This document shows positions 8,930 through 60,008 of a DNA stretch of 64,000 nt, piece by piece (the stretch's first letter is position 1; each line of letters opens with the position of its first letter). The stretch is from an uncultured Alphaproteobacteria bacterium (GTDB taxonomy: Bacteria; Pseudomonadota; Alphaproteobacteria; SP197): contig OY282363.1 in assembly GCA_958295695.1 (NCBI GenBank), positions 62,001 to 126,000 on the forward strand, in the 5' to 3' direction. The translations under genes and the position numbers were made by a program. The notes below the pieces were generated by a model. The model saw only the letters and a list, made by a program, of their open reading frames with translations, was not told where the DNA came from and ran no database searches.

Positions 8930-9137
8930 CTACGATTACCTGCTATGCCTCGGTATCTGCCCGCGTGAGATCGTCTTCAACATGTGGCGCAAAGGCGCGG
9001 TCGCCGAGAACCGCGCCGGGCGTCTTGTGCGAATGGCCGAAGGTCGGGCCGTTACCTGCAAGATCGCCAGGAAGCTGGAAGACATGGCGCCCATTGAGAC
9101 GTTGCCCGAGATGCTACGCGTAACCCTGGAATTGTAA
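8913..9137 (+). CDS. Small hypothetical protein overlapping the methyltransferase gene
   Basis: This 74-residue ORF starts at GTG 8913, overlapping the methyltransferase 3' end by 17 bp. It reads MRLDRDYDYLLCLGICP, then an EIVFNMWRKGAVAENRAG segment, and ends TLPEMLRVTLEL. Balanced composition with aromatic and hydrophobic residues suggests a real protein and not a shadow frame. No family is recognised. The overlap implies co-transfer and coupled translation with the methyltransferase. A role as an accessory protein of the methyltransferase or of the mobile block is inference only. Confidence 0.5.
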   Translation: MRLDRDYDYLLCLGICPREIVFNMWRKGAVAENRAGRLVRMAEGRAVTCKIARKLEDMAPIETLPEMLRVTLEL

Positions 9138-9148
9138 GGAACGCTTTC

Positions 9149-9314
9149 ATGCCCGAGAAACCGAAACCACGACCCGTGGCTCAAGCCCGCGGGCCATCGA
9201 CCCAGGAAGGCGGAGAAGGAAGTGGACATGTCCATCGACGTCTCGCCCGATGAGTTTCCCGACGCCGTCACGCGGTCCGTGAACATCGGGATCGCCGGCA
9301 AGCGCGACCGGTGA
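9149..9314 (+). pseudogene. Small frameshifted ORF (54-aa basic protein if repaired)
   Basis: The frame from ATG 9149 begins MPEKPK and soon becomes unlike a protein. The +1 frame continues HDPWLKPAGHRPRKAEKE, then VDMSIDVSPDEFPDAVTRSV and ends KRDR at 9314. Removing a single C near 9167-9168 joins the two into one sensible reading frame of about 54 residues. This suggests a 1-bp insertion in the genome or a sequence error. It sits 11 bp after the previous small ORF. No family is recognised. The rest of the gap to 9367 shows nothing. Confidence 0.45.
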
Positions 9315-9367
9315 AGGATCGGGACTGTCGTATGTAATCGCTCTCGTTCTCGGGGCCCCGACAGGCA

Positions 9368-10168
9368 ATGCTCGATCCCGACATCTTCGGCGTCCTGACC
9401 GCGTGGAACAGGGTCTGGGCGGTGGCGGCCGTTCATGGCGAACGCGGCCGTCTCGCGGCGCTTCACGATGCGCTGGCCGGACGTTTCCAGCCTCGCGACA
9501 GGGTGGTCTACCTGGGCGGCTACCTGGGTTTCGGCGGCGACGTGTGCGGGACGCTCGACGAGTTGATCGCCTTCCGCCGGGACCTGCTCGCCCGGCCGGG
9601 CGCGATCCCGCGGGACGTGGTGTTCCTGCGCGGCGCCCAGGAGGAGATGTGGCAGAAGCTTCTGCAGCTCCAGTTGGCCATGGATCCGTCCCGGGTCCTG
9701 GCCTGGATGCTCGAGCGCGGGGTCGCGGCCACGATCGGGGCCTATGGCGGGGTCGCGGCCGACGGTTTCGCCTCGGCCCGCGACGGCACGGTGAGCCTGA
9801 CCCGCTGGACCGGCCGGCTGCGCGCCGCGATGCACGCCCATCCCGGCCACCGCGAACTGCTGAGCCATCTCAAGCGCGCCTGCGTTACCGACGACGGCGC
9901 CATGCTGTTCGTGCACGCGGGCCTCGATCCCGGCCGGCCGATCGAGACCCAGCGCGACGCGTTCTGGTGGCGGCCGGCCGGTTTCACCGCCATGACGGAG
10001 CCCTACGGCGGCTTCAGGCTCGTCGTGCGCGGCCACGACCCGGACCGCGGCGGCGTCGCGATCGAGGACTTCAGGGCGACCATCGACGGCGACCGCGGGG
10101 AGGGCGGCCCGCTCGTCGCATGCTGCTTCGACCGCGGCTGCCGCGTCGTCGACCGGATCGAGGCTTGA
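9368..10168 (+). CDS. Metallophosphoesterase-fold protein with degenerate metal-binding motifs
   Basis: The 266-residue protein aligns in order with PPP-family phosphatases and diadenosine tetraphosphatases, but the signature motifs are altered. GDIHG is AAVHG (about residue 20), GDxxDRG is GGYLGFG (about 49) and GNHE is GAQE (about 82). The later LFVHAG and VRGHDP segments keep their His residues. Loss of the Asp, Asn and His metal ligands in motifs I-III argues against a normal dinuclear metal centre. A binding or regulatory pseudoenzyme is more likely. ATG 9368 gives a compact N-terminus. It reads in the same direction as carD, from which it is separated by the transposase/methyltransferase block. 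Confidence 0.75.
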   Translation: MLDPDIFGVLTAWNRVWAVAAVHGERGRLAALHDALAGRFQPRDRVVYLGGYLGFGGDVCGTLDELIAFRRDLLARPGAIPRDVVFLRGAQEEMWQKLLQLQLAMDPSRVLAWMLERGVAATIGAYGGVAADGFASARDGTVSLTRWTGRLRAAMHAHPGHRELLSHLKRACVTDDGAMLFVHAGLDPGRPIETQRDAFWWRPAGFTAMTEPYGGFRLVVRGHDPDRGGVAIEDFRATIDGDRGEGGPLVACCFDRGCRVVDRIEA

Positions 10169-10226: not shown

Positions 10227-11471
10227 ATGAGCCAGGGATTGCAGATCGACGCCGACCGCCTGTGGCGGTCGATCATGGAGATGGCCCGGATCGCCGCCAC
10301 GGAGAAGGGCGGCAACCGCCGTCTGGCGCTCACCGACGACGACAGGGAAGGCCGCGACCTCTTCGTCTCCTGGTGCGGGGACGCGGGCATGACCTGCACG
10401 GTCGACAAGATGGGCAACATCTTCGCCCGCCGGCCCGGCCGCGATCCCGACGCCGGTCCCGTCTCGACCGGCAGCCATCTCGACACCCAGCCCACCGGCG
10501 GCAAGTTCGATGGCGTCTACGGCGTCCTGGCGGGCCTCGAGGTCGTGCGCACGCTCAACGACGCCGGGGTCGAGACCGGGGCGCCGCTGGAGGTGATCTG
10601 CTGGACCAACGAGGAGGGCGCGCGCTTCTCGCCGGCCATGATCGGCTCCGCCGTCTTCGCGGGCGCGTTCGGCCTGGACTACGCCCACGGCCGGACCGAC
10701 GCCGAAGGCAAGACCCTGGGCGGGGAACTGGCGCGGATCGGATACCTCGGCCCGGAGGAGCCCGGCGGCCACGCGCTGGGCCATCACTTCGAGGCGCACA
10801 TCGAGCAGGGCCCGATCCTGGAGGCCGAGGGGAAACCGGTCGGCGTCGTGACCGGCGTGCAGGGCGTCCGCTGGTACGACATCGGGATCCGCGGCATGGA
10901 GGCCCACGCCGGGCCGACGCCCATGGAGGCGCGCAAGGACGCGGTCGTGGCCGCGGCCGAGCTGATCCGGCGTCTCGACGACAACGCCCTGGACGAAGGT
11001 CCCCACGGCCGGACGACCGTGAAGATCGCGCGCTGCGCGCCGGAGGGATCGCGCAACACGATCGCGGGCGAGGTCGCGCTCACGGTCGATATCCGCCACC
11101 CCGACCGGGACGCCTTCGACCGCCTGGACGCCGGACTGCGCCGGGCGGCGGCCGAGACCGCCGAGCTCAGGAAGGTCGGGATCGGCGTCGACGAGATCTG
11201 GGTCTCGCCGCCGGTCGTCTTCGACGCCGGCTGCGTCGACGCGGTGCGCCGCGCCGCCGCGCTGCTGGGCTACGGCCACATGGACATGGTCTCGGGGGCC
11301 GGCCACGACTCGGTCTATGTGAGCCGCGTCGCGCCGACCGCCATGATCTTCGTGCCCTGCGAGGGCGGCGTCAGCCACAACGAGATCGAGAACGCCGCCA
11401 GGGACGACCTCGAGGCGGGCTGCAACGTGCTGCTCCACGCCATGCTCGACCGCGCCGGCGCGCCCGGCTGA
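10227..11471 (+). CDS. Zn-dependent amidohydrolase of the allantoate / N-carbamoyl-amino-acid hydrolase family (M20 fold)
   Basis: The 414-residue enzyme belongs to the family of allantoate amidohydrolase, beta-ureidopropionase and N-carbamoyl-L-amino acid hydrolase. Metal ligands are visible in GSHLDTQPTGGKFDG (His and Asp), ICWTNEEGARF (Glu pair) and EAHIEQGPILE (His), with the C-terminal GAGHDSVYVSRVAP and GVSHNEIE ligand regions. The dimerisation domain shows GIRGMEAHAGPTPMEARKDA. ATG 10227 is chosen over an in-frame ATG at 10188 because family members begin just before IDADRLW. The exact substrate (ureido acid or allantoate) cannot be told from sequence. It stands alone, with a palindromic repeat behind it. 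Confidence 0.88.
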   Translation: MSQGLQIDADRLWRSIMEMARIAATEKGGNRRLALTDDDREGRDLFVSWCGDAGMTCTVDKMGNIFARRPGRDPDAGPVSTGSHLDTQPTGGKFDGVYGVLAGLEVVRTLNDAGVETGAPLEVICWTNEEGARFSPAMIGSAVFAGAFGLDYAHGRTDAEGKTLGGELARIGYLGPEEPGGHALGHHFEAHIEQGPILEAEGKPVGVVTGVQGVRWYDIGIRGMEAHAGPTPMEARKDAVVAAAELIRRLDDNALDEGPHGRTTVKIARCAPEGSRNTIAGEVALTVDIRHPDRDAFDRLDAGLRRAAAETAELRKVGIGVDEIWVSPPVVFDAGCVDAVRRAAALLGYGHMDMVSGAGHDSVYVSRVAPTAMIFVPCEGGVSHNEIENAARDDLEAGCNVLLHAMLDRAGAPG

Positions 11472-11530
11472 GCGCGCCCGTCCCCGGCGCGTTCGGGATT
11501 TGGCGGCCCGCCCGCCCCTTCCCTTCATCC

Positions 11531-11565
11531 CCTCGTCCCGAGCGGGTCCGAAGGACCGTATCGAG
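11531..11565. repeat. Dispersed palindromic intergenic repeat, copy 1
   Basis: The element reads CCTCGTCCCGAGCGGGTCC, then GAAGGACCGTATCGAG. It recurs in similar form at about 33192, 43179, 49378-49498 and 50934-51050. It has imperfect internal dyad symmetry (GGTCC/GGACC and CTCG/CGAG). It occupies the gap between convergently read genes. Confidence 0.6.
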
Positions 11566-11604
11566 AGCCTGCCCCGATCTTGCCGGAGGGAGGACGCCTC
11601 GCGC

Positions 11605-13083
11605 CTACTCCCGGACGATCTTGACCAGCATTCCGGGCTTGAGGTCGGCCTCCGACGCGAGGCCGTTGAGGACCGTGAAACGCTCGCGCCGGAGGTCGTC
11701 GAACTGCATCAGGCGGGCGAGGGAGTCGATGGTGTCGCCGCTCCGGACCTCGACCGCGCGCACGCGCAGCGGCTTCAGCGCCGCGGCCTCCTCGGGCGAG
11801 AGCCCGCGGAAACTGTGGGCGGCGCGCCGGAACGGCTCGGCCAGCGCGGACGCACGCGCGACGGGCGCGATGAAGACGAAGCGGTAGATCGCGCCCGCGC
11901 CGTGGCGGATGGCGAGAAAACGGACATCCGCGTCGCCCTGGCGCAGGGGCAGGCGGAGCCGGCCCGTGGCCGCGTCCATGCCGTTGACGTCGATGCGCTC
12001 CAGGTCGGCGAGCCGCGTCCCGCGTCCGACCTGCTCGTCGGCCCAGGCCCGCGCGTAGCCCGTCATCGGGCCGCCCGGGTCGGCCGCGCCGTCGAACAGG
12101 ATCGCCGCGCCGTCGCGGTCGAAGGCGGTGACGCGCCGGGGCGCGTTGACCATCCGGAAACCGTCCGGGACCCGGAAGGTCAGGCGCAGCTCGGGGTGGG
12201 AGAAGTCGCGGCCGCGCACGAAACCCTGGGCCGGGCTGTCGCCCCAGATCATGCCGTCGATCCGCCGCAGGTATTCGTCGCGCCCGAGATAGGGGTCGGC
12301 GAGGCCGGCGCGGGCGAGCCGGGCCGCCGCGACGACCCTGTCCTCGGTGCGCGGGTGGGTGGCGAACCAGCTCCCGGCGGGGTCCGGCTCGCCCTCCCGG
12401 AAGGCGATCCGGCGCGCGAGCTCCGAATGCCGTCCGAGCTGACGCAGGAAGCTCGCCATGGCGAGCGGGTCGTAGCCGGCGCGGGTCAGGTAGCGTACGC
12501 CGAGCTCGTCGGACTGCAGCTCCTGGCCGCGGCTGTAGCCCGCGATCCAGGCCCCGGCGCCCGTGTTGGCCAGATCCGAGACCGCGCGGTCCCGGAGCGC
12601 GGCGCCGATGGCGGCGACGCCGAGACCCGCCAGGACCTGCCGGGTCATGCGCTGCGCGCCGTGGCGCGCCGTGACATGGCCGATCTCGTGGCCGATCACG
12701 CCGGCCAGTTCGGCCTCGTTGTTGGCCAGCGCCATCAGGCCGCGCGTGACGTAGACATAGCCGCCGGGGATCGCGAAGGCGTTCACCATGTCGCTGTCGA
12801 GCAGGGTGAAGGTGAAGGGCTCCGTCGCCATCTCCGAGACGCCGTGGAGCCTGGAGGCGACCGTGGCGACATAGGCGTTGAGGCCGGGAAACTCCTCGTA
12901 GACGCCGAACTCGTCGAGCACCCGGGGATGGGCCTCGGCGCCGATCCGGCGTTCCTGCGCGGGCGAGACCAGGGTGAAGTCGTCCCGGCCCGTGGCGGGA
13001 TTGGTCGCGCAGCCGCCCGTCGCGGCGGCCAGCGCGCCGACGGCCGCGGCCAGGAAAAGGGAACGCAACCGGCGCGATGTCAC
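11605..13083 (-). CDS. Secreted M48-family Zn metalloprotease lipoprotein with C-terminal LysM-like domain
   Basis: The 492-residue protein begins at GTG 13083, overlapping the stop of the upstream SNase-like gene by 4 bp (GTGA). A signal segment precedes Cys25 in TGGCATNPATGR. This is the usual N-terminus of periplasmic M48 lipoproteins, though the lipobox residue at -3 is atypical. The catalytic motif HEIGH lies at 132-136 in VIGHEIGHVTARHG, with the third ligand Glu in the QELQSDELG segment near 188-193. A central domain of unknown role follows. The C-terminus (VRSGDTIDSLARLM and LKPGMLVKIV) looks like a LysM-type peptidoglycan-binding module. The family, which includes BepA/LoiP types, does protein quality control at the outer membrane. 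The role here is inferred. Confidence 0.88.
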   Translation of the reverse strand: MTSRRLRSLFLAAAVGALAAATGGCATNPATGRDDFTLVSPAQERRIGAEAHPRVLDEFGVYEEFPGLNAYVATVASRLHGVSEMATEPFTFTLLDSDMVNAFAIPGGYVYVTRGLMALANNEAELAGVIGHEIGHVTARHGAQRMTRQVLAGLGVAAIGAALRDRAVSDLANTGAGAWIAGYSRGQELQSDELGVRYLTRAGYDPLAMASFLRQLGRHSELARRIAFREGEPDPAGSWFATHPRTEDRVVAAARLARAGLADPYLGRDEYLRRIDGMIWGDSPAQGFVRGRDFSHPELRLTFRVPDGFRMVNAPRRVTAFDRDGAAILFDGAADPGGPMTGYARAWADEQVGRGTRLADLERIDVNGMDAATGRLRLPLRQGDADVRFLAIRHGAGAIYRFVFIAPVARASALAEPFRRAAHSFRGLSPEEAAALKPLRVRAVEVRSGDTIDSLARLMQFDDLRRERFTVLNGLASEADLKPGMLVKIVRE

Positions 13084-49537: not shown

Positions 49538-50842
49538 TCACTTCCCGATGCAGAACTCGGCGAAGACGCGGTCGAGCACGTCCTCGATATCGACCCGGCC
49601 GGTGATCCGCCCGAGGGCCGTGGCGGCGAGGCGCAGGTCCTCGGCGGCCAGCTCGGCCCCGGCGGCGGCGGCGGCCCGGTCGAGCGCGGCGGCGGCCTGC
49701 TCCAGCGCGGCCCGGTGGCGCTCCCGCGTGGGCGACGGGCTGGCGCCCTTCCAGGCCGCCTCGAAGCGCCGGGCCATGAGGGAGACGAGGCCGTCGAGGC
49801 CCTCGCCGGTCGCGCAGGAGACCGCGATGTCGGCCCCGGCCCCGGCGGCGGCGAGGTCGCGTTTGGTCGCCACCAGGAGCGCGCCCGGCCCCGCCTCGGG
49901 GGCGACGGCGGGCCGGGTCTCCTCCCAGCGCGCGGCGTCGACCAGCAGCAGGCGCAGGTCGGCCGTCCGCGCCTTCTCGCGGGCGCGCCGCACGCCCTCC
50001 CGCTCGACCGCGCCGGCGGCCTCGCGCAGGCCGGCGGTGTCGGCCAGGGTCACGGGATAGCCGGCGATGTCGAGCGTCGCCTCCACCACGTCGCGGGTGG
50101 CGCCCGCCTCCTCCGAGACGATCGCGGCCTCCCGGCGGGCGAGCGCGTTCAGCAGGCTCGACTTGCCGACGTTGGGCGCGCCGAGGATCGCGACGTGGAG
50201 GCCGGCGCGCAGCCGCTCGCCCCGGCGGTCGTCGGCGAGGTGCGCGCGGATCTCGCCGGCCAGCCGCCGGGCCGCGCCGCCCAGGCCGTCTCCCAGCGTC
50301 TCCGGCAGGTCCTCGTCGGAGAAGTCGATCAGGGCCTCGGCCTCCGCGAGGCGGGCCAGGACCGCCTCGCGCCAGCCGTCGTAGCGGGCGCGCAGGGACC
50401 CGTCCATCTGGGCCAGGGCCTGGTCCCGCTGGCGCGCCGTCGCGGCCTCCACGAGGTCCGCGACGGCCTCGGCGGCGGTCAGGTCGAGCTTGCCGCCCAG
50501 CACGGCCCGGCGGGTGAACTCGCCGGGTTCGGCGGGCCGGAGCCCCGGCGCGCGGGACAGGGCCTCGAGGACGCCCCGCACCACCGCCCGGCCGCCGTGG
50601 ACGTGGAACTCGGCCATGTCCTCGCCGGTCGCGCTCGCCGGTCCCGGAAACCACAGGACCAGCGCCCGGTCGAGCCGGCCGCCGCCGTCGGGGTCGGTCA
50701 GGACGCGCAACGCGGCCACGCGCGGTTCCGGCCGGGCCCGCCCCGTCAGGGCCTCGACCGCCACGCCGGCCGCCGGACCGCTGACGCGGATCACCGCCAC
50801 CGCCGCGCGGCCCGGCGCCGAGGAGAGCGCGTAGATCGTCAC
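49538..50842 (-). CDS. mnmE: tRNA modification GTPase MnmE (TrmE)
   Basis: The 434-residue GTPase pairs with MnmG. The N-terminal tetrahydrofolate domain begins TIYALSSAPGRAAVAVIRVS, and the helical domain shows FTRRAVLGGKLDLTAAEAVA. The G domain has GAPNVGKSSLLNALA (G1), VTLADTAGLREA (G3) and a TKRD version of the N/TKxD G4. The C-terminus ends with the catalytic CIGK. GTG 50842 is the start, 11 bp from parS site 3. It is the last recognisable gene of the gid/par block. The usual upstream neighbour rho is absent and a restriction cassette lies beyond. Confidence 0.96.
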   Translation of the reverse strand: MTIYALSSAPGRAAVAVIRVSGPAAGVAVEALTGRARPEPRVAALRVLTDPDGGGRLDRALVLWFPGPASATGEDMAEFHVHGGRAVVRGVLEALSRAPGLRPAEPGEFTRRAVLGGKLDLTAAEAVADLVEAATARQRDQALAQMDGSLRARYDGWREAVLARLAEAEALIDFSDEDLPETLGDGLGGAARRLAGEIRAHLADDRRGERLRAGLHVAILGAPNVGKSSLLNALARREAAIVSEEAGATRDVVEATLDIAGYPVTLADTAGLREAAGAVEREGVRRAREKARTADLRLLLVDAARWEETRPAVAPEAGPGALLVATKRDLAAAGAGADIAVSCATGEGLDGLVSLMARRFEAAWKGASPSPTRERHRAALEQAAAALDRAAAAAGAELAAEDLRLAATALGRITGRVDIEDVLDRVFAEFCIGK

Positions 50843-50876
50843 GGGCGGGAGCGTTTCACGTGAAACGCGGGACCGG
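50811..50876. repeat. mnmE-start/parS duplicated segment, copy A (functional)
   Basis: This 66-bp segment contains the first ten or so mnmE codons, the GTG start, an 11-bp spacer and parS site 3. Copies B (51227-51291) and C (53981-54041) repeat it. A and B differ by about five substitutions and one indel. Confidence 0.8.
50853..50866. promoter_or_regulatory. parS site 3
   Basis: A perfect GTTTCACGTGAAAC lies 11 bp upstream of the mnmE GTG start, inside copy A of the duplicated segment. Confidence 0.9.
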
Positions 50877-50933
50877 CCCGCGCGCCATGCCCGAATCGTC
50901 CCCGGCGGCCGGCCGCTCGGCCGCCGGACGGGC

Positions 50934-51050
50934 CCGTCCCTCGATACGGCGCCGGCGCGCCACCTCGGGATGAGGGGAGTTCGCGCTTTGTCCCCACCCG
51001 AAATTCTCCCTCGCCCCGGGTAGCGGCCGAAGGCCGCGTATCGAAGGGCG
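50934..51050. repeat. Dispersed palindromic repeats between parS 3 and parS 4
   Basis: GTCCCTCGATACGGCGCCGG with CACCTCGGGATGAGGGGA (50934-50979), and TCGCCCCGGGTAGCGGCCGA with AGGCCGCGTATCGAAGGGCG (51011-51050), are divergent copies of the palindromic family. The gap 50867-51441 otherwise holds parS 4 and 5 and repeat copy B. Confidence 0.5.
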
Positions 51051-51058
51051 CCGCCAGC

Positions 51059-51072
51059 GTTTCACGTGAAAC
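51059..51072. promoter_or_regulatory. parS site 4
   Basis: A perfect GTTTCACGTGAAAC lies in the gap between mnmE and the R-M cassette. Its flanks do not match those of sites 3, 5 and 6. Confidence 0.9.
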
Positions 51073-51226
51073 GACGCATCGGACGGCGCGATGTCGTCGC
51101 CGAGTCGCCGCCTGTCGATCGTCGCCACCGCCTTGTCCCCGAGCGCCCGCCATCGAACCGATAACCCGTCGCGCGGAACCGGGCAAACGCCGATCCGGCG
51201 CCGGACGGGCGGATCGAGGCGAGCGG

Positions 51227-51291
51227 CCCGGCGCCGGGGAGAGGGCATGGACCGTCACGGGCGGAGCGTTTCACGTGAAACGCGGGACCGG
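51227..51291. repeat. mnmE-start/parS duplicated segment, copy B (decayed)
   Basis: On the minus strand this reads GTG then TVHALSPAPGR, a decayed copy of the MnmE N-terminus (TIYALSSAPGR), with parS site 5 at the same spacing. It is about 90 percent identical to copy A by eye over 65 bp. It lies 150 bp from the end of the nuclease gene. Confidence 0.8.
51268..51281. promoter_or_regulatory. parS site 5
   Basis: A perfect GTTTCACGTGAAAC lies within copy B of the mnmE-start duplication, next to the 3' end of the restriction cassette. Confidence 0.9.
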
Positions 51292-51441
51292 ATCGTGCGC
51301 GGCCGCGCGGCGCCTCGGGACGAGGGACATCGCGCTTCGTCTCCGCCCGACACTCCGCCCCGAGGCGCCCACCGCGGCCGGGCGCGCCGGACTTTCAAGG
51401 CGGGCCATCGAGGCGAAGGAGTGGAATCGAAGCTCTCCCCG

Positions 51442-52290
51442 CTACAACTGGCGCGGTTCGTCGATGAAGTCCTTCAGGAGCCGATCGAGATCGCGGTAGA
51501 TCGTGGCGGCCGAGAAGTGTTCCGCGAGATCCGCGAGGATTCGGGCGCGCGGGCGGGCGTCGACCATTTTGGGATCGCGCGATGCCCAGTCACGGCCCGG
51601 ATGGAGGGTGTCCCAGGGGGACCGACGGTTGGAGCGGGTCGAGGGCGCGTCGCCGTGCTTCCCCAAGCCGAAACAGATGTCCGTCTCGTTGTTCCAGACC
51701 GGCCGGAACAGGTCGATGAGGTAATCCTCGGCCGCGCCTTGCCAGCCGGTCTGGACCACGAGAAAGCGGCAGTCGAAGTCGGCGGGGTCGAGCGTGCCTT
51801 TCGTCTTGCCGATGTTCCTCGGGCGATCCCTAAGGCGATCGTGGAGCCGGGAACCCTGGTCCACGGGCGTCCTGGCGGTGTCCGACGCCGGATCCGCCTT
51901 GCCGACGTAGATCGGGGTTTCGGCGCCGCGGATAGGCGCGTAGGGAACGAACCCGCCCCTGTAGTAGAGGGCGTAGACTCCGGAGCCGTGAAAGCGCTCG
52001 ACGGCCGGCAGGGGCGCGCGCGGTTGGGCGACCGTGGCGAGGGCGATGAACCGCCCGACCGTGGCGGGATCGCCCGGATCGAACACGAACCGGGGCCACC
52101 GGACCGGGTCGAGGTCCCGCGACAGCGTCCCGGCTCGGTCCACCAGCGCGCGAAGCCCGGCGTCGATCCGTCGGAACGCCGCCGGCGAGGCCCGGCCCGC
52201 GCCGGCGGCCTCGGAGAGAGCGGCCAGTCCGGCGTCGAGGCGTTCGAGACCCTCCGCGACGGCGGCGTTCCGCTCCCGCCGCCGGTTCAT
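51442..52290 (-). CDS. Eco29kI-family GIY-YIG restriction endonuclease
   Basis: The 282-residue protein matches the Eco29kI family of type II restriction enzymes with a GIY-YIG nuclease core. GVYALYYRGGFVPYAPI supplies the GIY-like motif, TPIYVGKADP the YIG-like motif, GSRLHDRLRDR the Arg, and CRFLVVQTGWQGAAEDYLID the Glu. NNETDICFGLGKHGD and NRRSPWDTLHPGRDWA are family-specific DNA-contact segments. Eco29kI itself cuts CCGCGG; the specificity of this homologue is inferred, not shown. ATG 52290 overlaps the stop of the methyltransferase gene (ATGA). The N-terminal 80 residues are helical. Confidence 0.85.
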   Translation of the reverse strand: MNRRRERNAAVAEGLERLDAGLAALSEAAGAGRASPAAFRRIDAGLRALVDRAGTLSRDLDPVRWPRFVFDPGDPATVGRFIALATVAQPRAPLPAVERFHGSGVYALYYRGGFVPYAPIRGAETPIYVGKADPASDTARTPVDQGSRLHDRLRDRPRNIGKTKGTLDPADFDCRFLVVQTGWQGAAEDYLIDLFRPVWNNETDICFGLGKHGDAPSTRSNRRSPWDTLHPGRDWASRDPKMVDARPRARILADLAEHFSAATIYRDLDRLLKDFIDEPRQL

Positions 52291-53462
52291 CGGCCGTTCC
52301 CGCGACATTCCTCGAGGCGCTCCCGGATGCTCGCGGCGACGACCTCGGCCAGGGCGACGGGGACCGCGTTGCCGAGTTGGCGCATGGTCTCCGTCCAGGA
52401 GCCATGGAACAGGAAGCCGTCGGGGAACGTCTGGAGACGCGCGCTCTCGCGCACCGAGAAGTAGCGCACGGCGCCATCGGGGCGGCGAAGCATGTTCTCG
52501 CCGCCGGGCACGCCGTGATCGCCCGCCTTGAGGGTCTTGGCCGGCTCGTCATGGGGGCTCCCGGTGTGTCCCGGATAGCTCCGCGCGCCCGGCTGGAAGC
52601 GGTGGTTCCGGTGACGCGAGGCGGCCTCGGGCTCCCATTCGGGATCGGGCAAACCGGACAGCGCGTCCCGCACGGTGCGCCATGGCGCCGCGGGCGGCTT
52701 CGTCCGAAGGCGCTCCACGGCGTCGGCGAGGCGCCCGTCGGGCGCGCGGCCGGGCCGCGGCAGGCCATGGGACTCCCAATACTCGCCCGAACGCCACTGC
52801 GACCACAGAAGGGCCCGCCGGGAATGCGTCGGCCGGGGGAAGGTCCACTCGACGCCGAGGTCGGCCCGGAAGCCGACGATGAAGACCCGCTCGCGGCGCT
52901 GCGGAACGCCGAAATCGGCGGCGTTCAGGACGCGGGCGACAACCCGGTAGGCCAGATCGTCGGCCGGGCCGCGCGCGTGACGCCGCTCCAGACGGGCGAG
53001 GTGGTCGCCCCATCCCTCGTCCGCGCGGCGGACACACTCGGGATAGGCGAGCTGGAGGCGGATGTACTCGAAGTAATTGGCGAAGGCCCGCCTCGTCAGG
53101 CCCTTGACGTTCTCGAACAGGAAGGCGCGCGGCCGGAGCTCCCGCACCGCGCGGATGGCCTGCGGGAACATGTCCCGCCCGTCGAGACGGCCGCGGTGCT
53201 TTCCCCCCAGGGAGAAGGGCTGACAAGGGGGGCCGCCGGACACCAGGTCCATCCCGCCGCCGAGGGACTCGAAGCCGAAGTCCCGGACATCGCCCTGGAC
53301 CAGGGGCCAATGGACGAGAGGGTCCAGGCCCCGGTCCCGGTTCTCCCGGATCGTGTCGCAGCAATAGCGGTCCCGTTCGAGCACGGCGACGGGCGCGAAG
53401 CCCGCGCGGCTCACGCCGACGCCCAGCCCCCCCGCGCCGGCGAAAAGCTCAACCGCCCGCAC
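52287..53462 (-). CDS. C5-cytosine DNA methyltransferase (Dcm/M.Eco29kI type)
   Basis: The 391-residue enzyme has motif I LFAGAGGLGVGVSRAGF, motif IV SGGPPCQPFSLGGKHRG with the catalytic Cys, motif VI LFENVKGL, motif VIII PQRRERVFIVGF and motif X RQLGNAVPVALAEVV. The target-recognition region lies between VIII and X. It protects sites of the adjacent nuclease. GTG 53462 overlaps vsr by 14 bp. The three genes vsr, methyltransferase and nuclease form one overlapping cassette. Confidence 0.93.
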   Translation of the reverse strand: MRAVELFAGAGGLGVGVSRAGFAPVAVLERDRYCCDTIRENRDRGLDPLVHWPLVQGDVRDFGFESLGGGMDLVSGGPPCQPFSLGGKHRGRLDGRDMFPQAIRAVRELRPRAFLFENVKGLTRRAFANYFEYIRLQLAYPECVRRADEGWGDHLARLERRHARGPADDLAYRVVARVLNAADFGVPQRRERVFIVGFRADLGVEWTFPRPTHSRRALLWSQWRSGEYWESHGLPRPGRAPDGRLADAVERLRTKPPAAPWRTVRDALSGLPDPEWEPEAASRHRNHRFQPGARSYPGHTGSPHDEPAKTLKAGDHGVPGGENMLRRPDGAVRYFSVRESARLQTFPDGFLFHGSWTETMRQLGNAVPVALAEVVAASIRERLEECRGNGR

Positions 53463-53880
53463 GGTCTCCCTCCAGAAAGGCTCGAATGTCGTTCTTCATG
53501 CGTTCCCCGTAGCCGATCCGGCACTCCCACACAACAAGCACGTCCCAGCCCAGTTCGCTCAACCTCGCCCGGTTCTCCAGGTCCCGGCGGCGATTGCCCT
53601 CCAGCTTGGTTTTCCAGAAACCGAGGCGCGACTTGGGCAGGCGCGCCAGCTTGCAAGCCGGGTCGGGATGGCGATGCCAGAAGCATCCATGCACAAATAT
53701 AGCCTTTTTCCGGCTTGGAAACACCAAATCCGGTGTTCCCGGCAGATCGCGGCGATGCAGGCGGTAGCGGTAGCCCATGCCGTGGACCAGACGCCGGACG
53801 ACCATTTCGGGCTTGCTGTCCTTGCCGCGAACGCGGCTCATGCGCTCGCTGCGCTCCGCCTCGGTGAGCGTGTCGGCCAT
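53449..53880 (-). CDS. vsr: Very short patch repair endonuclease Vsr
   Basis: The 143-residue enzyme nicks next to T:G mismatches that arise when 5-methylcytosine deaminates, so it accompanies C5 methyltransferases. Signatures are RSERMSRVRGKDSKPEMVVR, DLPGTPDLVFPSRKKAIFVH and GCFWHRHPD, with FWKTKLEGNRRRD and GWDVLVVWECRI. The catalytic Asp is in TPDLVF. ATG 53880 is the family start. It is first in the cassette. Confidence 0.93.
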   Translation of the reverse strand: MADTLTEAERSERMSRVRGKDSKPEMVVRRLVHGMGYRYRLHRRDLPGTPDLVFPSRKKAIFVHGCFWHRHPDPACKLARLPKSRLGFWKTKLEGNRRRDLENRARLSELGWDVLVVWECRIGYGERMKNDIRAFLEGDRAGG

Positions 53881-53980
53881 GCGGGCCCCGCGACCTCCAT
53901 CTTCTCCAAACGCGCGAGGCCATTGTGGCCCAGGCTTCGCCGGTCATCGAGAGGATGCCGTCCCCGGCCGCGCCGCCAAG

Positions 53981-54041
53981 CCCGGAGAAGGGGACGCGGA
54001 CCGTCCCGGGCGGGAGCGTTTCACGTGAAACGCGGGCCCGG
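53981..54041. repeat. mnmE-start/parS duplicated segment, copy C (most decayed)
   Basis: This segment repeats CCGTCNCGGGCGGGAGC plus parS site 6 and GCGGGNCCGG. On the minus strand the start codon GTG has become GGG, and TVRVPFSG replaces TVHALSPAPG. It lies 100 bp beyond vsr, so copies B and C flank the whole R-M cassette as direct repeats. Confidence 0.7.
54018..54031. promoter_or_regulatory. parS site 6
   Basis: A perfect GTTTCACGTGAAAC lies in copy C on the far side of the R-M cassette. Confidence 0.9.
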
Positions 54042-54146
54042 CTCGCGGTATGCCGCCGCCGCATTGTCGCATGGTCCGCCAAGGTCACGATCGCATCGCA
54101 ACGGCAAGCACGGCCCGCCCGGAAATCGGTGGGACATGGGGGAGTG

Positions 54147-54424
54147 TCAGGCTCGACCCCGCGACCGGACCGCCGTGAACGCCCAGACGAGCGCCGCCAC
54201 CCAGCCCAAGAGCGTCCAACCGACAAGGATGTTGAGAGCCAGGATCGCAACCCGCTGGTGGTGGCCACGCATGAAGGCGATCACCGAAGGCTGGAAGTAG
54301 AGCAGAATCAGGACAGTCGACGCGATCAAGAGAAAATTCGGATCGAATCCGGTAAGCTGGTCGGCGGCATGAGCTGGGAAGCAAAACCGATCGGCGCCGC
54401 GAGAAGGGCGGGAGTACGGTACAC
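54147..54424 (-). pseudogene. Superinfection-immunity (Imm_superinfect) membrane protein gene with a probable 1-bp frameshift
   Basis: A GTG at 54424 behind a GAGGAGA ribosome binding site starts YRTPALLAAPIGF, a signal-type segment, but the frame ends in a stop at 54326. In the neighbouring frame follow FPAHAADQLTGFDPNF, STVLILLYFQPSVIAFMRGH, HQRVAILALNILVGW and TLLGWVAALVWAFTAVRSRG. This is the two-helix superinfection-immunity domain (PF14373-like; YFxPxxIAFxRGHHQ, NxxxGWTxxGWxxAL). Adding one base to the A-tract at 54383-54386 joins them into a 92-residue secreted/inner-membrane protein. The family is named after a T4 protein that blocks DNA entry by related phages. Either the gene is broken or the tract carries a sequence error. 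If the frame is truly broken, TTG 54329 could give a 60-residue product. Confidence 0.7.
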
Positions 54425-55016
54425 GGATTGTCTCCTCGACAATGAGAACGAACCTATCGCGCCTACCTGTGTCGTCGAACGAAGACGAGGAAAACCGTCC
54501 CCGGTCGGCGACATTGGGGGACGGAGACCGAACCGCCAAAGCTACGCCCCCAGCCCTCGCCTCGAGGCGCCCCGCCGGCCTTGTCCGGGGATGGATCCCG
54601 TATCCGTCCCCGCGCGGCCACGCTCTCCGCGGCGCGAGACGCGGCGGCCGGCGGTCGCGGAGCGGCCGCACGGATCGAACCCGCTTCGAGGAGTCGTCGA
54701 ACACGGACTATTGCGCTCAAAAATGGGCGCGTCTGTCCTCGACCGGTATCGGCGCCGGGTCGCACGATGACCGCATGAACGGGCGGCGGTCCGTCGCGAG
54801 GGTGCGCAAATGGGCGCGGAGGCTGATGGGCGTTTTCCGGATGCGCACACCGAAAGTCACCCGCGCGCCTTTGATCGTCGACATCACGGCCGCGGCACCC
54901 CACAGCCGGTCGAGCACGGTCCCCATGCTGTCATGGCCGAACTCGTGACACATGAAACGGTGCAAAACCAGGCGGTTCCCAAGGCAAGCGCCTCCTGTCG
55001 GTCGCACGGGCGTCTG
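54425..55016. other. Gap of about 590 bp without a recognised gene
   Basis: Several ORFs are open in this stretch, but none resembles a protein family and their composition is that of high-GC shadow frames. One minus-strand ORF (54717-55007) contains the segment LHRFMCHEFGHDSMGTVLDR, which has a chance HEFGH motif. It lacks any further peptidase feature. No repeat copy was seen here. Confidence 0.4.
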
Positions 55017-56285
55017 TTACCAGTCGGCGATGGTCGCCAGCCCGTGATTCTGGATCTGGTGGCGGATCAGATAGCTGGAGACGCCGAATTGCGCGCCGAG
55101 TTCGTCCACCCGTTCCGGTTCCACCGGCCCACCGTTCAGGCGCCGGCGCAGGGCCTCGGCCGGCGCCAGAAACTCCGCCGCGAAGGCGCGCGATTGCGCT
55201 TGGCGGCTCGTCGCCAGCGAGCTGAGGATCGTCGGCCCTGGCTCGGACCGGTCCAGATAGTCGCCCAAGGCGCGCGCCATCAGGAAGCGCCTGCCCGTTT
55301 CGCCGCGTGGGGCCATCGTACATGCCGGCGTATCTGCCGCCACCAGCCCGTCGATGCGCGTCGAGGGCGGCTGCGTTTCGCTCCAGTGAAGCGACAGAGG
55401 CCCCTCCGAGGTAAAGTCGAAACGGGCGTCGCCACTGTCCAGCGCCCGGTGGGCGGAGCGCGCCAAGTGGTAGCCCCGTTTCCAAGGTGGGGCGGCAGTC
55501 ATCGACGGCAGAGCCTTGCGTATCTCCTGCCAGTCGTCACCACTCTTCGCGTCGCGGAGAGTTTCGAGGGAGGCAGCCAGCCACGCGCTCGTCTGCGGCG
55601 CCGAGTCCGTGTCGGCGGCCGCCAAGGCATCGTCGCGCAGGGATGGAGCGGCATCCTTCCAAAGCTTCACGATGGCGTCGGCCAGATGGTCCGGAACATC
55701 GAAGGGATCGGCGCCGAGCAGGGCGGCGGCGCGACAGAACTGCCGCTCGTCGCGGTCGAGCGTGTTGACCGCCGTCCATTCGTCGCCGAGCGCGCCCGGG
55801 GCGACATCCTGGCTCCGCAGCCTTTCAAGCACGGCCTCGACGAGGGTGCGACATTCCCTCTCCAACGTCGCGGGATCGACGTCGCCCGCTTCGCCGGGTT
55901 CGGCGACGAACTCGATCCGGGCATGGCTCGGCCTGTAAGGCCTCCACCGCAGGCGCATACGCTCCGGCGTCGGCGCCATGGCGAGCCAAGGGAGGACGAA
56001 ACCATCGCCGGCGAAGGCCAGATTGTGCCGGGCCTCGAAATCGGGCTTCTGTTCCCCCACGTTCTCGACTTCATGGAAGAGGTGCCACCAGTGGACGGCC
56101 AGCCACTCCGCGACGCCGGCCAGGGGAACCACGACGTGGTCCCGATAGGTCCGGCTCGAACGGTCGACCACCGAGGTGACGACCGCGCCGCCCGCTTCGA
56201 TGGAGAGCGCGGCCATGGTCGCGCGCGCGCGCTCGTCCTGGGAAGGCGGAGCCTCCACCCAATCGAAGCGAAAGCGGACGCTCAT
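55017..56285 (-). CDS. ImmA/IrrE-like protein with degenerate catalytic motif
   Basis: The 422-residue product ends with the hallmark of ImmA/IrrE metallopeptidases: SRAFAAEFLAPAEALRRRL, then a final alpha/beta tail (FGVSSYLIRHQIQNHGLATI). The preceding helix, where family members have AHELGHHL (HExxH), reads MARALGDYL here. His-Glu and the second His are replaced, so zinc binding is lost. The first 300 residues contain a large N-terminal region beginning SVRFRFDWVEAPPSQDERAR, with WRPYRPSHARIEFVAEPGE. No helix-turn-helix is apparent. ATG 56285 overlaps the stop of the gene before it (ATGA), so the two are translated together. ImmA-type proteins normally cleave repressors in phages and mobile elements. 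This one could act by binding only. Confidence 0.8.
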   Translation of the reverse strand: MSVRFRFDWVEAPPSQDERARATMAALSIEAGGAVVTSVVDRSSRTYRDHVVVPLAGVAEWLAVHWWHLFHEVENVGEQKPDFEARHNLAFAGDGFVLPWLAMAPTPERMRLRWRPYRPSHARIEFVAEPGEAGDVDPATLERECRTLVEAVLERLRSQDVAPGALGDEWTAVNTLDRDERQFCRAAALLGADPFDVPDHLADAIVKLWKDAAPSLRDDALAAADTDSAPQTSAWLAASLETLRDAKSGDDWQEIRKALPSMTAAPPWKRGYHLARSAHRALDSGDARFDFTSEGPLSLHWSETQPPSTRIDGLVAADTPACTMAPRGETGRRFLMARALGDYLDRSEPGPTILSSLATSRQAQSRAFAAEFLAPAEALRRRLNGGPVEPERVDELGAQFGVSSYLIRHQIQNHGLATIADW

Positions 56286-56680
56286 GGCAAGCCCCGGACC
56301 TGTTGACACGATTCCAGCGGATAACCGTGATACTCCCCCGATCCCGGCGAGTTCGGACAGGCTTCGAACACGGTACCGCCTTGGCGGTACCAGACATAGC
56401 GCGGGAAACCCCGATCCCATGTCCCGGTGTGGCCGGCCCTCACGGCATCCTGGAGCCAGCCCTCGACGAGGCGCCGGCGGTTCGCCAGATTACCGGGGCA
56501 CAGGCTCGCATCGGGGCGGTGGCGAGGCATCCCGGCGAAGCCGGGGCGGTCCTTGTGGTAGGGGCTGCCGACATAGCGACATGCCTCCGCCGCCTGCGCC
56601 AGATTGGCGCCGACGGGCGGTGGCGCGACCTTCTTCGCCTTCGGGTTGCCACGCCGACGCCGGGGGTTCGGTGCCTTCAC
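56282..56680 (-). CDS. Hypothetical protein, partner of the ImmA/IrrE-like protein
   Basis: The 132-residue product begins at GTG 56680, with AGGGAG 10 bp upstream. An ATG at 56722 in frame lacks a ribosome binding site and lies among promoter-like sequence (a TTGACA box at 56730-56735). It has a basic N-terminus (KAPNPRRRRGNPKAKK) and then CRYVGSPYHKDRPGFAG, DASLCPGNLANRRRLVEGWL and RGFPRYVWYRQGGTVFEA, ending SGEYHGYPLESCQQ. The Cys/His/Tyr/Trp-rich core suggests a compact, possibly nucleic-acid-binding or nuclease-like fold. No named family is recognised. The 4-bp overlap with the ImmA-like gene makes a two-gene module. Confidence 0.7.
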   Translation of the reverse strand: MKAPNPRRRRGNPKAKKVAPPPVGANLAQAAEACRYVGSPYHKDRPGFAGMPRHRPDASLCPGNLANRRRLVEGWLQDAVRAGHTGTWDRGFPRYVWYRQGGTVFEACPNSPGSGEYHGYPLESCQQVRGLP

Positions 56681-56722
56681 GATACGGTGTCTCCCTATAG
56701 CAAATTGCGTAGATTCTAACAT

Positions 56723-57312
56723 GCTGGATTGTCAAGCGCGTGTCCCAGGGAAGGTCTGATCGAGCTGCTTGGTTATGCGGAGGGAGTATTCCCGATGCCC
56801 GATGGGACTTGGCGAAGCGCCATTGAGTCTTGGAACCCCCGGTTTCGATGCCCCGGCGGTTTCCGTACCGTTTAGATGAGTCGCTTCCGCCTCACGCCAG
56901 CGCCAGATGGCGCTCGCCGATCATCAGGATTGGCGATTTGGCCGTTCATCCGTTTTCCAACACCAGTGTTTCCGTAACTATATGAATATACAGGAATATC
57001 AGGCATCCGAAAAAGCGCGATCCTATCGGACACAACAATCAACACAACGGCAACACGGGGAGGCACTCCGGAACGGGATGCCGATTCCGGCGATCGCGCG
57101 ACCCGTCATGGCCGATCCCGGCCGGCGCGACGCCGGCTTGGCGGGCAGTTTCACGTGTCTCAACCGTCGGCCCGCGCTAGGCCCACGGTCAGCCCCGCGC
57201 CGGTTGGGGAAGCGCGTCGCCGCGACCGTTGGCGAGGCGGCCCGATCCGCTCCCGAGCGCCTGGACCGGCGCGGGGGTTGTGCGTCAACGCAGGCTTGGG
57301 CGATCCGCGCCC
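56723..57312. other. Gene-free gap with an AT-rich core
   Basis: The 590-bp stretch holds no convincing gene. Its middle (about 56925-57060) is far richer in A and T than the rest of the window and contains ACTATATGAATATACAGGAA. A TTGACA box for the gene at 56680 lies at 56730-56735 on the minus strand. The degenerate parS listed next is at 57148. The low-GC island may be a mobile-element scar or promoter region. Confidence 0.5.
57148..57161. promoter_or_regulatory. Degenerate parS-like sequence
   Basis: GTTTCACGTGTCTC keeps the left ten bases of the parS core and loses three of the last four. It could be a decayed seventh site. Confidence 0.3.
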
Positions 57313-57552
57313 TCAGCCCTTGTCCCCGCCGGCCGCGGCCTGTTTCCAGAGGCGCGTCATGCGGTCCACGCCCTCGGCCGAGGCGCCCATCCAGGCCTTG
57401 AGGGCGGCCTCGGGGTCGAACTGTCCGGCCGCCTCGGCCAGCCGCGCCCCGAGGCCGGCCAGAATCTCCTCCTGGAGCGGGCCGATGTCGGGCAGGCCGA
57501 GGGCCGCGCGGGCCTCCTCGGGCGTGCAGTCGATCTCGATCGTGACCTTCAT
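57313..57552 (-). CDS. DUF6489-type small protein
   Basis: The 79-residue protein reads KVTIEIDCTPEEARAALGLP, then DIGPLQEEILAGLGARLAEA and DPEAALKAWMGASAEGVDRM, ending WKQAAAGGDKG. It matches the short DUF6489-type proteins of Alphaproteobacteria, which start with a beta strand plus D-C-T-P-x-E-A and a helical remainder. Function is unknown. ATG 57552 lies 97 bp from the divergent DUF255 gene. Confidence 0.75.
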   Translation of the reverse strand: MKVTIEIDCTPEEARAALGLPDIGPLQEEILAGLGARLAEAAGQFDPEAALKAWMGASAEGVDRMTRLWKQAAAGGDKG

Positions 57553-57648
57553 GGACGCCTCCCGCCGGTTTCCGGGCTTGTGATCGCCGTCTCCGGCGGT
57601 CAGGTTACGGGGTCCTTCCCCCCCGACGCAACGGCCGGACGCCGCCCG

Positions 57649-59691
<2,043 letters not shown>

Positions 59692-60008
59692 ACGCCCGTC
59701 CTCCCCGGACTCTCGCGCCGACGCGCCGCGCGGCGGCGCCCCGGCCATCGCGTTCGGGATCGGGGGACGGGAGAATCGCGCTCGCGAGACTCGCCCCGCG
59801 GCGACCGCGCCGGTCGCGACCGGTCCGCCCGCCCCGGAGACACGGCGCGCCGCCCCTTCGGTCCGGCTTCGCGGCGATCCGGGCGCGGGCCATGCGGCGG
59901 CCTCGATCGTGGACCGGGCCATGCGGCGGGAACCGTCCGGTTTTCAAGTCTGGCCATCCGCGCCGGGATCGTAGCAGAGTGGCGCCGGCAAAGGGAGGAG
60001 GGCGCGCC
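59692..60008. other. Gap between DUF255 and quinone oxidoreductase genes
   Basis: The 317-bp gap is Arg/Pro-coding in all frames and shows no recognised gene, repeat copy or hairpin. A GGGAGGAGGG ribosome binding site near 59992-60001 serves the next gene. Confidence 0.5.

Follow-up and report, generated by a model that had tools for sequence, protein, structure and literature searches.

The window, a stretch of 64,000 nucleotides from an uncultured alphaproteobacterium, carries two overlapping genes whose products are referred to here as the partner and the large protein (Table 1). The coordinates, the two-gene layout and the ATGA overlap given in the original prediction were all confirmed from the sequence: the ATG of the large gene (56285-56283) overlaps the TGA of the partner gene (56284-56282). 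In L008, another alphaproteobacterial chromosome, the partner gene has an ATG at the codon where the window gene has GTG. A scan for promoters and terminators returned no element. The partner is rich in Cys, Tyr and Trp, as predicted (four, six and three residues, respectively). Its conserved residues are Y36, G38, H42, K43, C61, P93, W97, Y117 and G119, C61 being the sole conserved cysteine.

Table 1. Features of the locus, with positions in the window
Feature	Positions	Strand	Basis or remark
Approximate island, 6.5 kb	50867..57345		Between mnmE and conserved gene at 57346
Restriction-modification (R-M) cassette	51442..53880	-	Eco29kI-type endonuclease 51442-52308, C5 methylase 52287-53462, Vsr 53449-53880
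Superinfection immunity domain ORF (PF14373)	54147..54704	-	Pfam
Mobile segment	55004..56746		95.5% shared with L008; flanks unrelated
Large gene, 422 aa, proposed antitoxin	55017..56285	-	Degenerate M78 (ImmA/IrrE-like) C-terminal domain
Pseudo-M78 domain, residues 262-422	55020..55502	-	hhalign, hmmsearch
Q362 replacing third zinc ligand Glu	55200..55202	-	33/33 and alignment
R338-A-L-G-D342 replacing HExxH (H->R, E->A, H->D)	55260..55274	-	R338 33/33, D342 30/33
N-terminal domain, residues 1-160, motif LA.W....WW	55806..56285	-	Best solved-structure match CdiI 5ffp_A
Partner gene, 132 aa, proposed toxin, GTG start	56282..56680	-	ATGA overlap with large gene
AGGGAGA, Shine-Dalgarno-like, before partner GTG	56690..56696	-	Sequence

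The ImmA/IrrE (M78) domain forms the last ~160 residues of the large protein. MARALGDYL and the AFAAEFLAPAEALRRRL signature both lie within it, as originally described. When the domain is aligned to intact M78 proteins, AHELGH lies opposite ARALGD and the glutamate ligand opposite Gln362, and every metal-binding and catalytic position is changed. Among 33 distinct homologues, R338, Q362 and R366 are invariant and D342 is present in 30, and none of the 33 carries the HExxH motif of an active peptidase. Since R338 and Q362 are kept throughout, the zinc-site residues were replaced and then maintained, which rules out random decay of the site. Judged by this conservation, the dead site is a preserved, non-catalytic site.

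The relationship to M78 proteins is clear from profile comparisons. The pseudo-M78 profile built from the 33 homologues matches 11 canonical HExxH M78 proteins from related genomes (hhalign, 97.9%, E 3e-13), and the dead-domain HMM retrieves the intact Xre-M78-type proteins L098 and L129 (hmmsearch, E about 1e-10). Two subfamily members pass the Pfam Peptidase_M78 gathering cut-off of 22 bits (L014 with 29.0 bits, L009 with 24.8), and the large protein of the window, with 15.1 bits, stays under it. The prediction that the fold is kept stands as far as homology is concerned. The structural model does not support it: residues 264-374 have a pLDDT under 50, so that retention of the fold rests on sequence only. 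No M78 chain occurs among the PDB matches of the whole large model, in which this domain is poorly modelled, and a sequence search of the large protein against solved structures gave no match.

The N-terminal domain (residues 1-152) is predicted to resemble the immunity protein CdiI of Burkholderia dolosa (5ffp_A; Z 7.6, rmsd 3.4, 120 aligned residues, next-best matches Z 4.8), a score within the range reached by models without a clear match. In contrast to CdiI, with which it shares 13% identity, it forms part of a larger protein. The annotated plasmid stretches examined show no cdi genes beside the pair. Structure comparison also gave weak matches of the C-terminal tail to helix-turn-helix (HTH) proteins, and capP, at E 0.005, was the only and weak PADLOC match.

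Loss of HExxH, whose generality in the linked subfamily had been posed as a question, holds within the dead clade and fails outside it. A search with the N-terminal domain alone found L183, whose N-terminal domain is homologous (E 1.5e-11) and whose M78 domain, next in the chain, bears an intact AHEFFH together with EKRANAFAAMLLMP. Directly upstream lies a partner with the motifs YRGSSKHK, LCP and WHGFPIP. A divergent version occurs on Agrobacterium tumefaciens pAt (L184), where a partner-like gene (E 3e-4) is joined by an ATGA overlap to an M78 protein with intact HExxH. Relatives of this kind had been named in advance as evidence against the original prediction; they rule out universal loss across the module and indicate that the loss is derived. 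In a tree of M78 domains, all dead proteins group together in a single clade that includes no intact protein (UFBoot 75). The dead state most likely arose once; with clade support moderate and the partner matches short, the evidence for this is good though not definitive. A third candidate, Azospirillum L185, was rejected: its M78 domain is intact and its upstream gene is unrelated to the partner. The L183 locus (857-2967), a module of this kind whose M78 site is intact, offers the best comparison for experiments.

The pair is a genuine two-gene module, as originally proposed, and the partner was never found alone. In 32 of 33 distinct loci a partner or partner remnant lies directly upstream of the large gene, and in one family the same nine of 18 genomes were found via either protein. 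Homologues occur in Alphaproteobacteria, Betaproteobacteria, another Pseudomonadota class, Acidobacteriota (L009) and Desulfobacterota (L011), and an Opitutales MAG (L010) carries a remnant; weak matches in L006, L007, L020 and L021 were left out of the analysis. The distribution is patchy: about five of 385 sampled genomes of the window's class have a full-length copy, and further copies reside on plasmids. Group alignments run against viral contigs in four scans added little beyond L041-L043.

The sole exception to the linkage lies on Rhizobium etli plasmid pRetIE4771b, where a TumE-family gene (PF20126, over cut-off) occupies the partner's place and precedes a dead-M78 large protein with a fused N-terminal HTH. 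TumE-TumA are toxin-antitoxin pairs by experiment, and one TumE family member inhibits protein synthesis (PMC10584680). The TumE (DUF6516) domain is confined to this variant. The usual partner, in contrast, shows no similarity to R. etli TumE (hhalign 0.1%) and has no Pfam match, which rules it out as a TumE relative.

Lesions of the module are asymmetric. At five loci the large gene is intact and the partner broken: the N-terminal two thirds are absent (L011), an internal deletion has occurred (L056), ~120-150 bases with stops are inserted (L057, about 9119-9748), the 5' part is replaced (L059), or a frameshift falls within the YHGYP motif (L054, possibly a sequencing error). In L055, which also has a frameshifted partner, the large gene runs off the contig. 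Among the loci examined, the converse state, a damaged large gene beside an undamaged partner, is absent; L010 retains parts of both genes, and of the L176 module just the C-terminal portion of the large gene survives. The partner accounts for 24% of the coding length, and if lesions fell by length alone the chance of this outcome is about 0.003 for four events and 0.0008 for five; the loci are mostly in multi-contig draft assemblies, and L054 is closely related to L056. Such an asymmetry would be expected of a partner that does harm when the large protein is absent. For the large gene, dN/dS between L054 and L056 is 0.36; the values between the window and L008 (0.53 and 0.76) reflect too few changes to be useful.

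We regard the mobile pair as probably a RosmerTA-like toxin-antitoxin-type module, in which the partner would be the toxin and the dead-protease protein the antitoxin. The two genes overlap, are tightly linked and are mobile, as in type II toxin-antitoxin systems. A regulatory or sensing role had been predicted for the large protein; an antitoxin fits better because of the partner-only lesions, the TumE gene in the partner's place and the CdiI-like N-terminal domain. The small first gene would thus supply a toxin, and the second a large antitoxin composed of an immunity-like N-terminal domain, a helical middle and the M78 domain. Since the zinc site is replaced by an Arg-Asp-Gln set, neutralisation in the dead clade would have to occur by binding and not by zinc-dependent cleavage. 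In the weakest step of the scheme, the M78 remnant and its C-terminal HTH-like tail would probably serve as a scaffold or sensor through which phage infection or another stress releases the toxin. A bolder and less probable reading is that of a toxin-antitoxin family new to science: in a single event an ImmA-type protease would have become an antitoxin that acts by binding alone, its new conserved Arg-Asp-Gln pocket possibly holding a trigger ligand, and a new family of small toxins would be paired with it.

The partner has no family match in PADLOC, Pfam, NCBIfam or PHROGs, only a chance-level sequence match to solved structures (E 1.1) and none in a structure search against viral structures. 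In a more specific form of the toxin-antitoxin reading, fully compatible with it, the partner would be a toxin of the RelE/ParE type (BECR fold) and, most likely, an RNase. Of the 17 structural matches listed for the partner model, 11 are RelE, ParE or HigB-type toxin-antitoxin chains or CDI chains, and the gene that replaces the partner in R. etli is of the TumE family, with its one member known to inhibit protein synthesis. However, all matches have Z <= 3.2 with Foldseek E >= 1.3, and the model has a pLDDT of 72 and a low-confidence centre, which leaves this assignment possible and rather doubtful. Although each is weak alone, the CdiI match of the large protein and the matches of the partner model are, taken together, suggestive of a toxin and immunity pair.

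The genomic setting bears on a second explanation. Compared with L008, the window shows no similarity on either side of the shared segment within the 13 kb compared; the pair alone is the unit that moves, and its transfer was recent. In five congeneric genomes mnmE directly adjoins the gene at 57346, so that 50.87-57.34 kb is an insertion in the window genome, and the island holds the R-M cassette, the superinfection-immunity ORF and the pair. No tRNA insertion target lies within 50000-60000 of the window. The immunity-type gene (PF14373) and the R-M genes (Eco29kI-type endonuclease, C5 methylase, Vsr) named as neighbours in the original prediction are indeed present. Elsewhere, a Massilia plasmid copy lies beside dptFGH, an A. 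tumefaciens pAt2 copy between restriction genes, and chromosomal neighbours include IetAS, AbiE, AbiU and a DRT. This company would suit a two-component phage defence that is not a toxin-antitoxin system, with the dead-M78 protein as sensor of a phage product and the partner as an effector that does no harm until activated. Many other chromosomal neighbours are housekeeping genes, however, and a pure sensor is not expected to persist once its partner is lost; we consider this account unlikely. The predicted clustering with defence genes is clear in the window and on two plasmids, one of Massilia and one of A. tumefaciens, whereas at 17 chromosomal loci the PADLOC excess is only modest (about 8 of 95 neighbours versus about 4 of 84 control proteins, counts estimated from overlapping family rows), and the module is thus not confined to defence islands.

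The polarity of the toxin-antitoxin reading could also be reversed, with a toxic or active large protein restrained by the small partner. In PD-lambda-2, which comprises a HigB-like gene and an Xre-peptidase fusion, the fusion is toxic alone and rescued by the HigB-like partner (PMC9519451). Yet a toxic large protein should be selected against at the five loci where only the partner is broken, which makes this arrangement highly improbable. A further alternative, in which the large protein controls transcription of neighbouring genes and the partner acts as co-regulator, is likewise very unlikely: M78 proteins do control Xre repressors (PMC2701414) and the C-terminal tail has weak HTH matches, but the repressor-cutting protease is dead and the pair is common to L008 without any neighbour.

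The toxin-antitoxin reading places the module close to several described systems. ImmA-domain proteins are a known antitoxin hub, with the toxin gene first in 58%; RosmerTA (RmrT-RmrA) and the ImmA hub of NetFlax (node D25) combine ImmA-domain antitoxins with varied toxins (PMC10440598). The likeness comprises two genes, the ImmA/M78-domain protein as presumed antitoxin of a variable toxin, and a link to phage defence. In contrast to these systems, the zinc site of the window family is absent and replaced, the predicted fold of its N-terminal domain is CdiI/Whirly-like, whereas D25 proteins frequently carry an HTH, and the partner belongs to no annotated family. Where RosmerTA has an ImmA protease domain beside the toxin, the window has a homologous domain that is catalytically dead, the related L183 and L184 being intact. 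M78 genes beside RelE and PIN toxins were noted in 2009 (Makarova, PMC2701414). Xre-COG2856 modules and PD-lambda-2 likewise encode an M78 protein beside a toxin-like gene; COG2856 proteins are described with HExxH and are linked or fused to an Xre domain (PMC2701414), whereas the window family has neither. The module appears to work like RosmerTA, the M78-toxin pairs and PD-lambda-2, but lacks the catalytic residues of an M78 peptidase and differs in its N-terminal domain and its unannotated partner. We found no published description of the module in the open-licence literature, an incomplete sample.

Whether ImmA-domain antitoxins act by proteolysis or by binding is not settled in the literature searched. 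The dead clade, occurring beside intact modules with a related partner, makes this question directly testable. If the proposal is true, the partner represents an unannotated toxin family spread over the five groups of homologues named above (Alphaproteobacteria, Betaproteobacteria, another Pseudomonadota class, Acidobacteriota and Desulfobacterota).

Some further observations concern the surroundings of the pair. On the Massilia sp. H6 plasmid (L069) the pair directly follows dptFGH, with a HipA gene nearby and no dnd modification genes annotated in the stretch examined. In R. etli (L070), the TumE-family gene and the HTH-dead-M78 fusion span 10925-12888, and a CBASS cyclase gene lies ~12 kb away. 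Directly downstream of the window pair, a short ORF on the reverse strand (54717-55007) contains a HExxH-like MCHEFGHD and has no family match; part of its sequence recurs in similar form elsewhere in the genome, and it is probably not a protease gene. Finally, the palindromic sequence CGTTTCACGTGAAACG, which resembles the ParB-binding parS, occurs six times near parAB (49326, 49509, 50852, 51058, 51267 and 54017; chance expectation 0), and the last three of these sites lie inside the inserted island.
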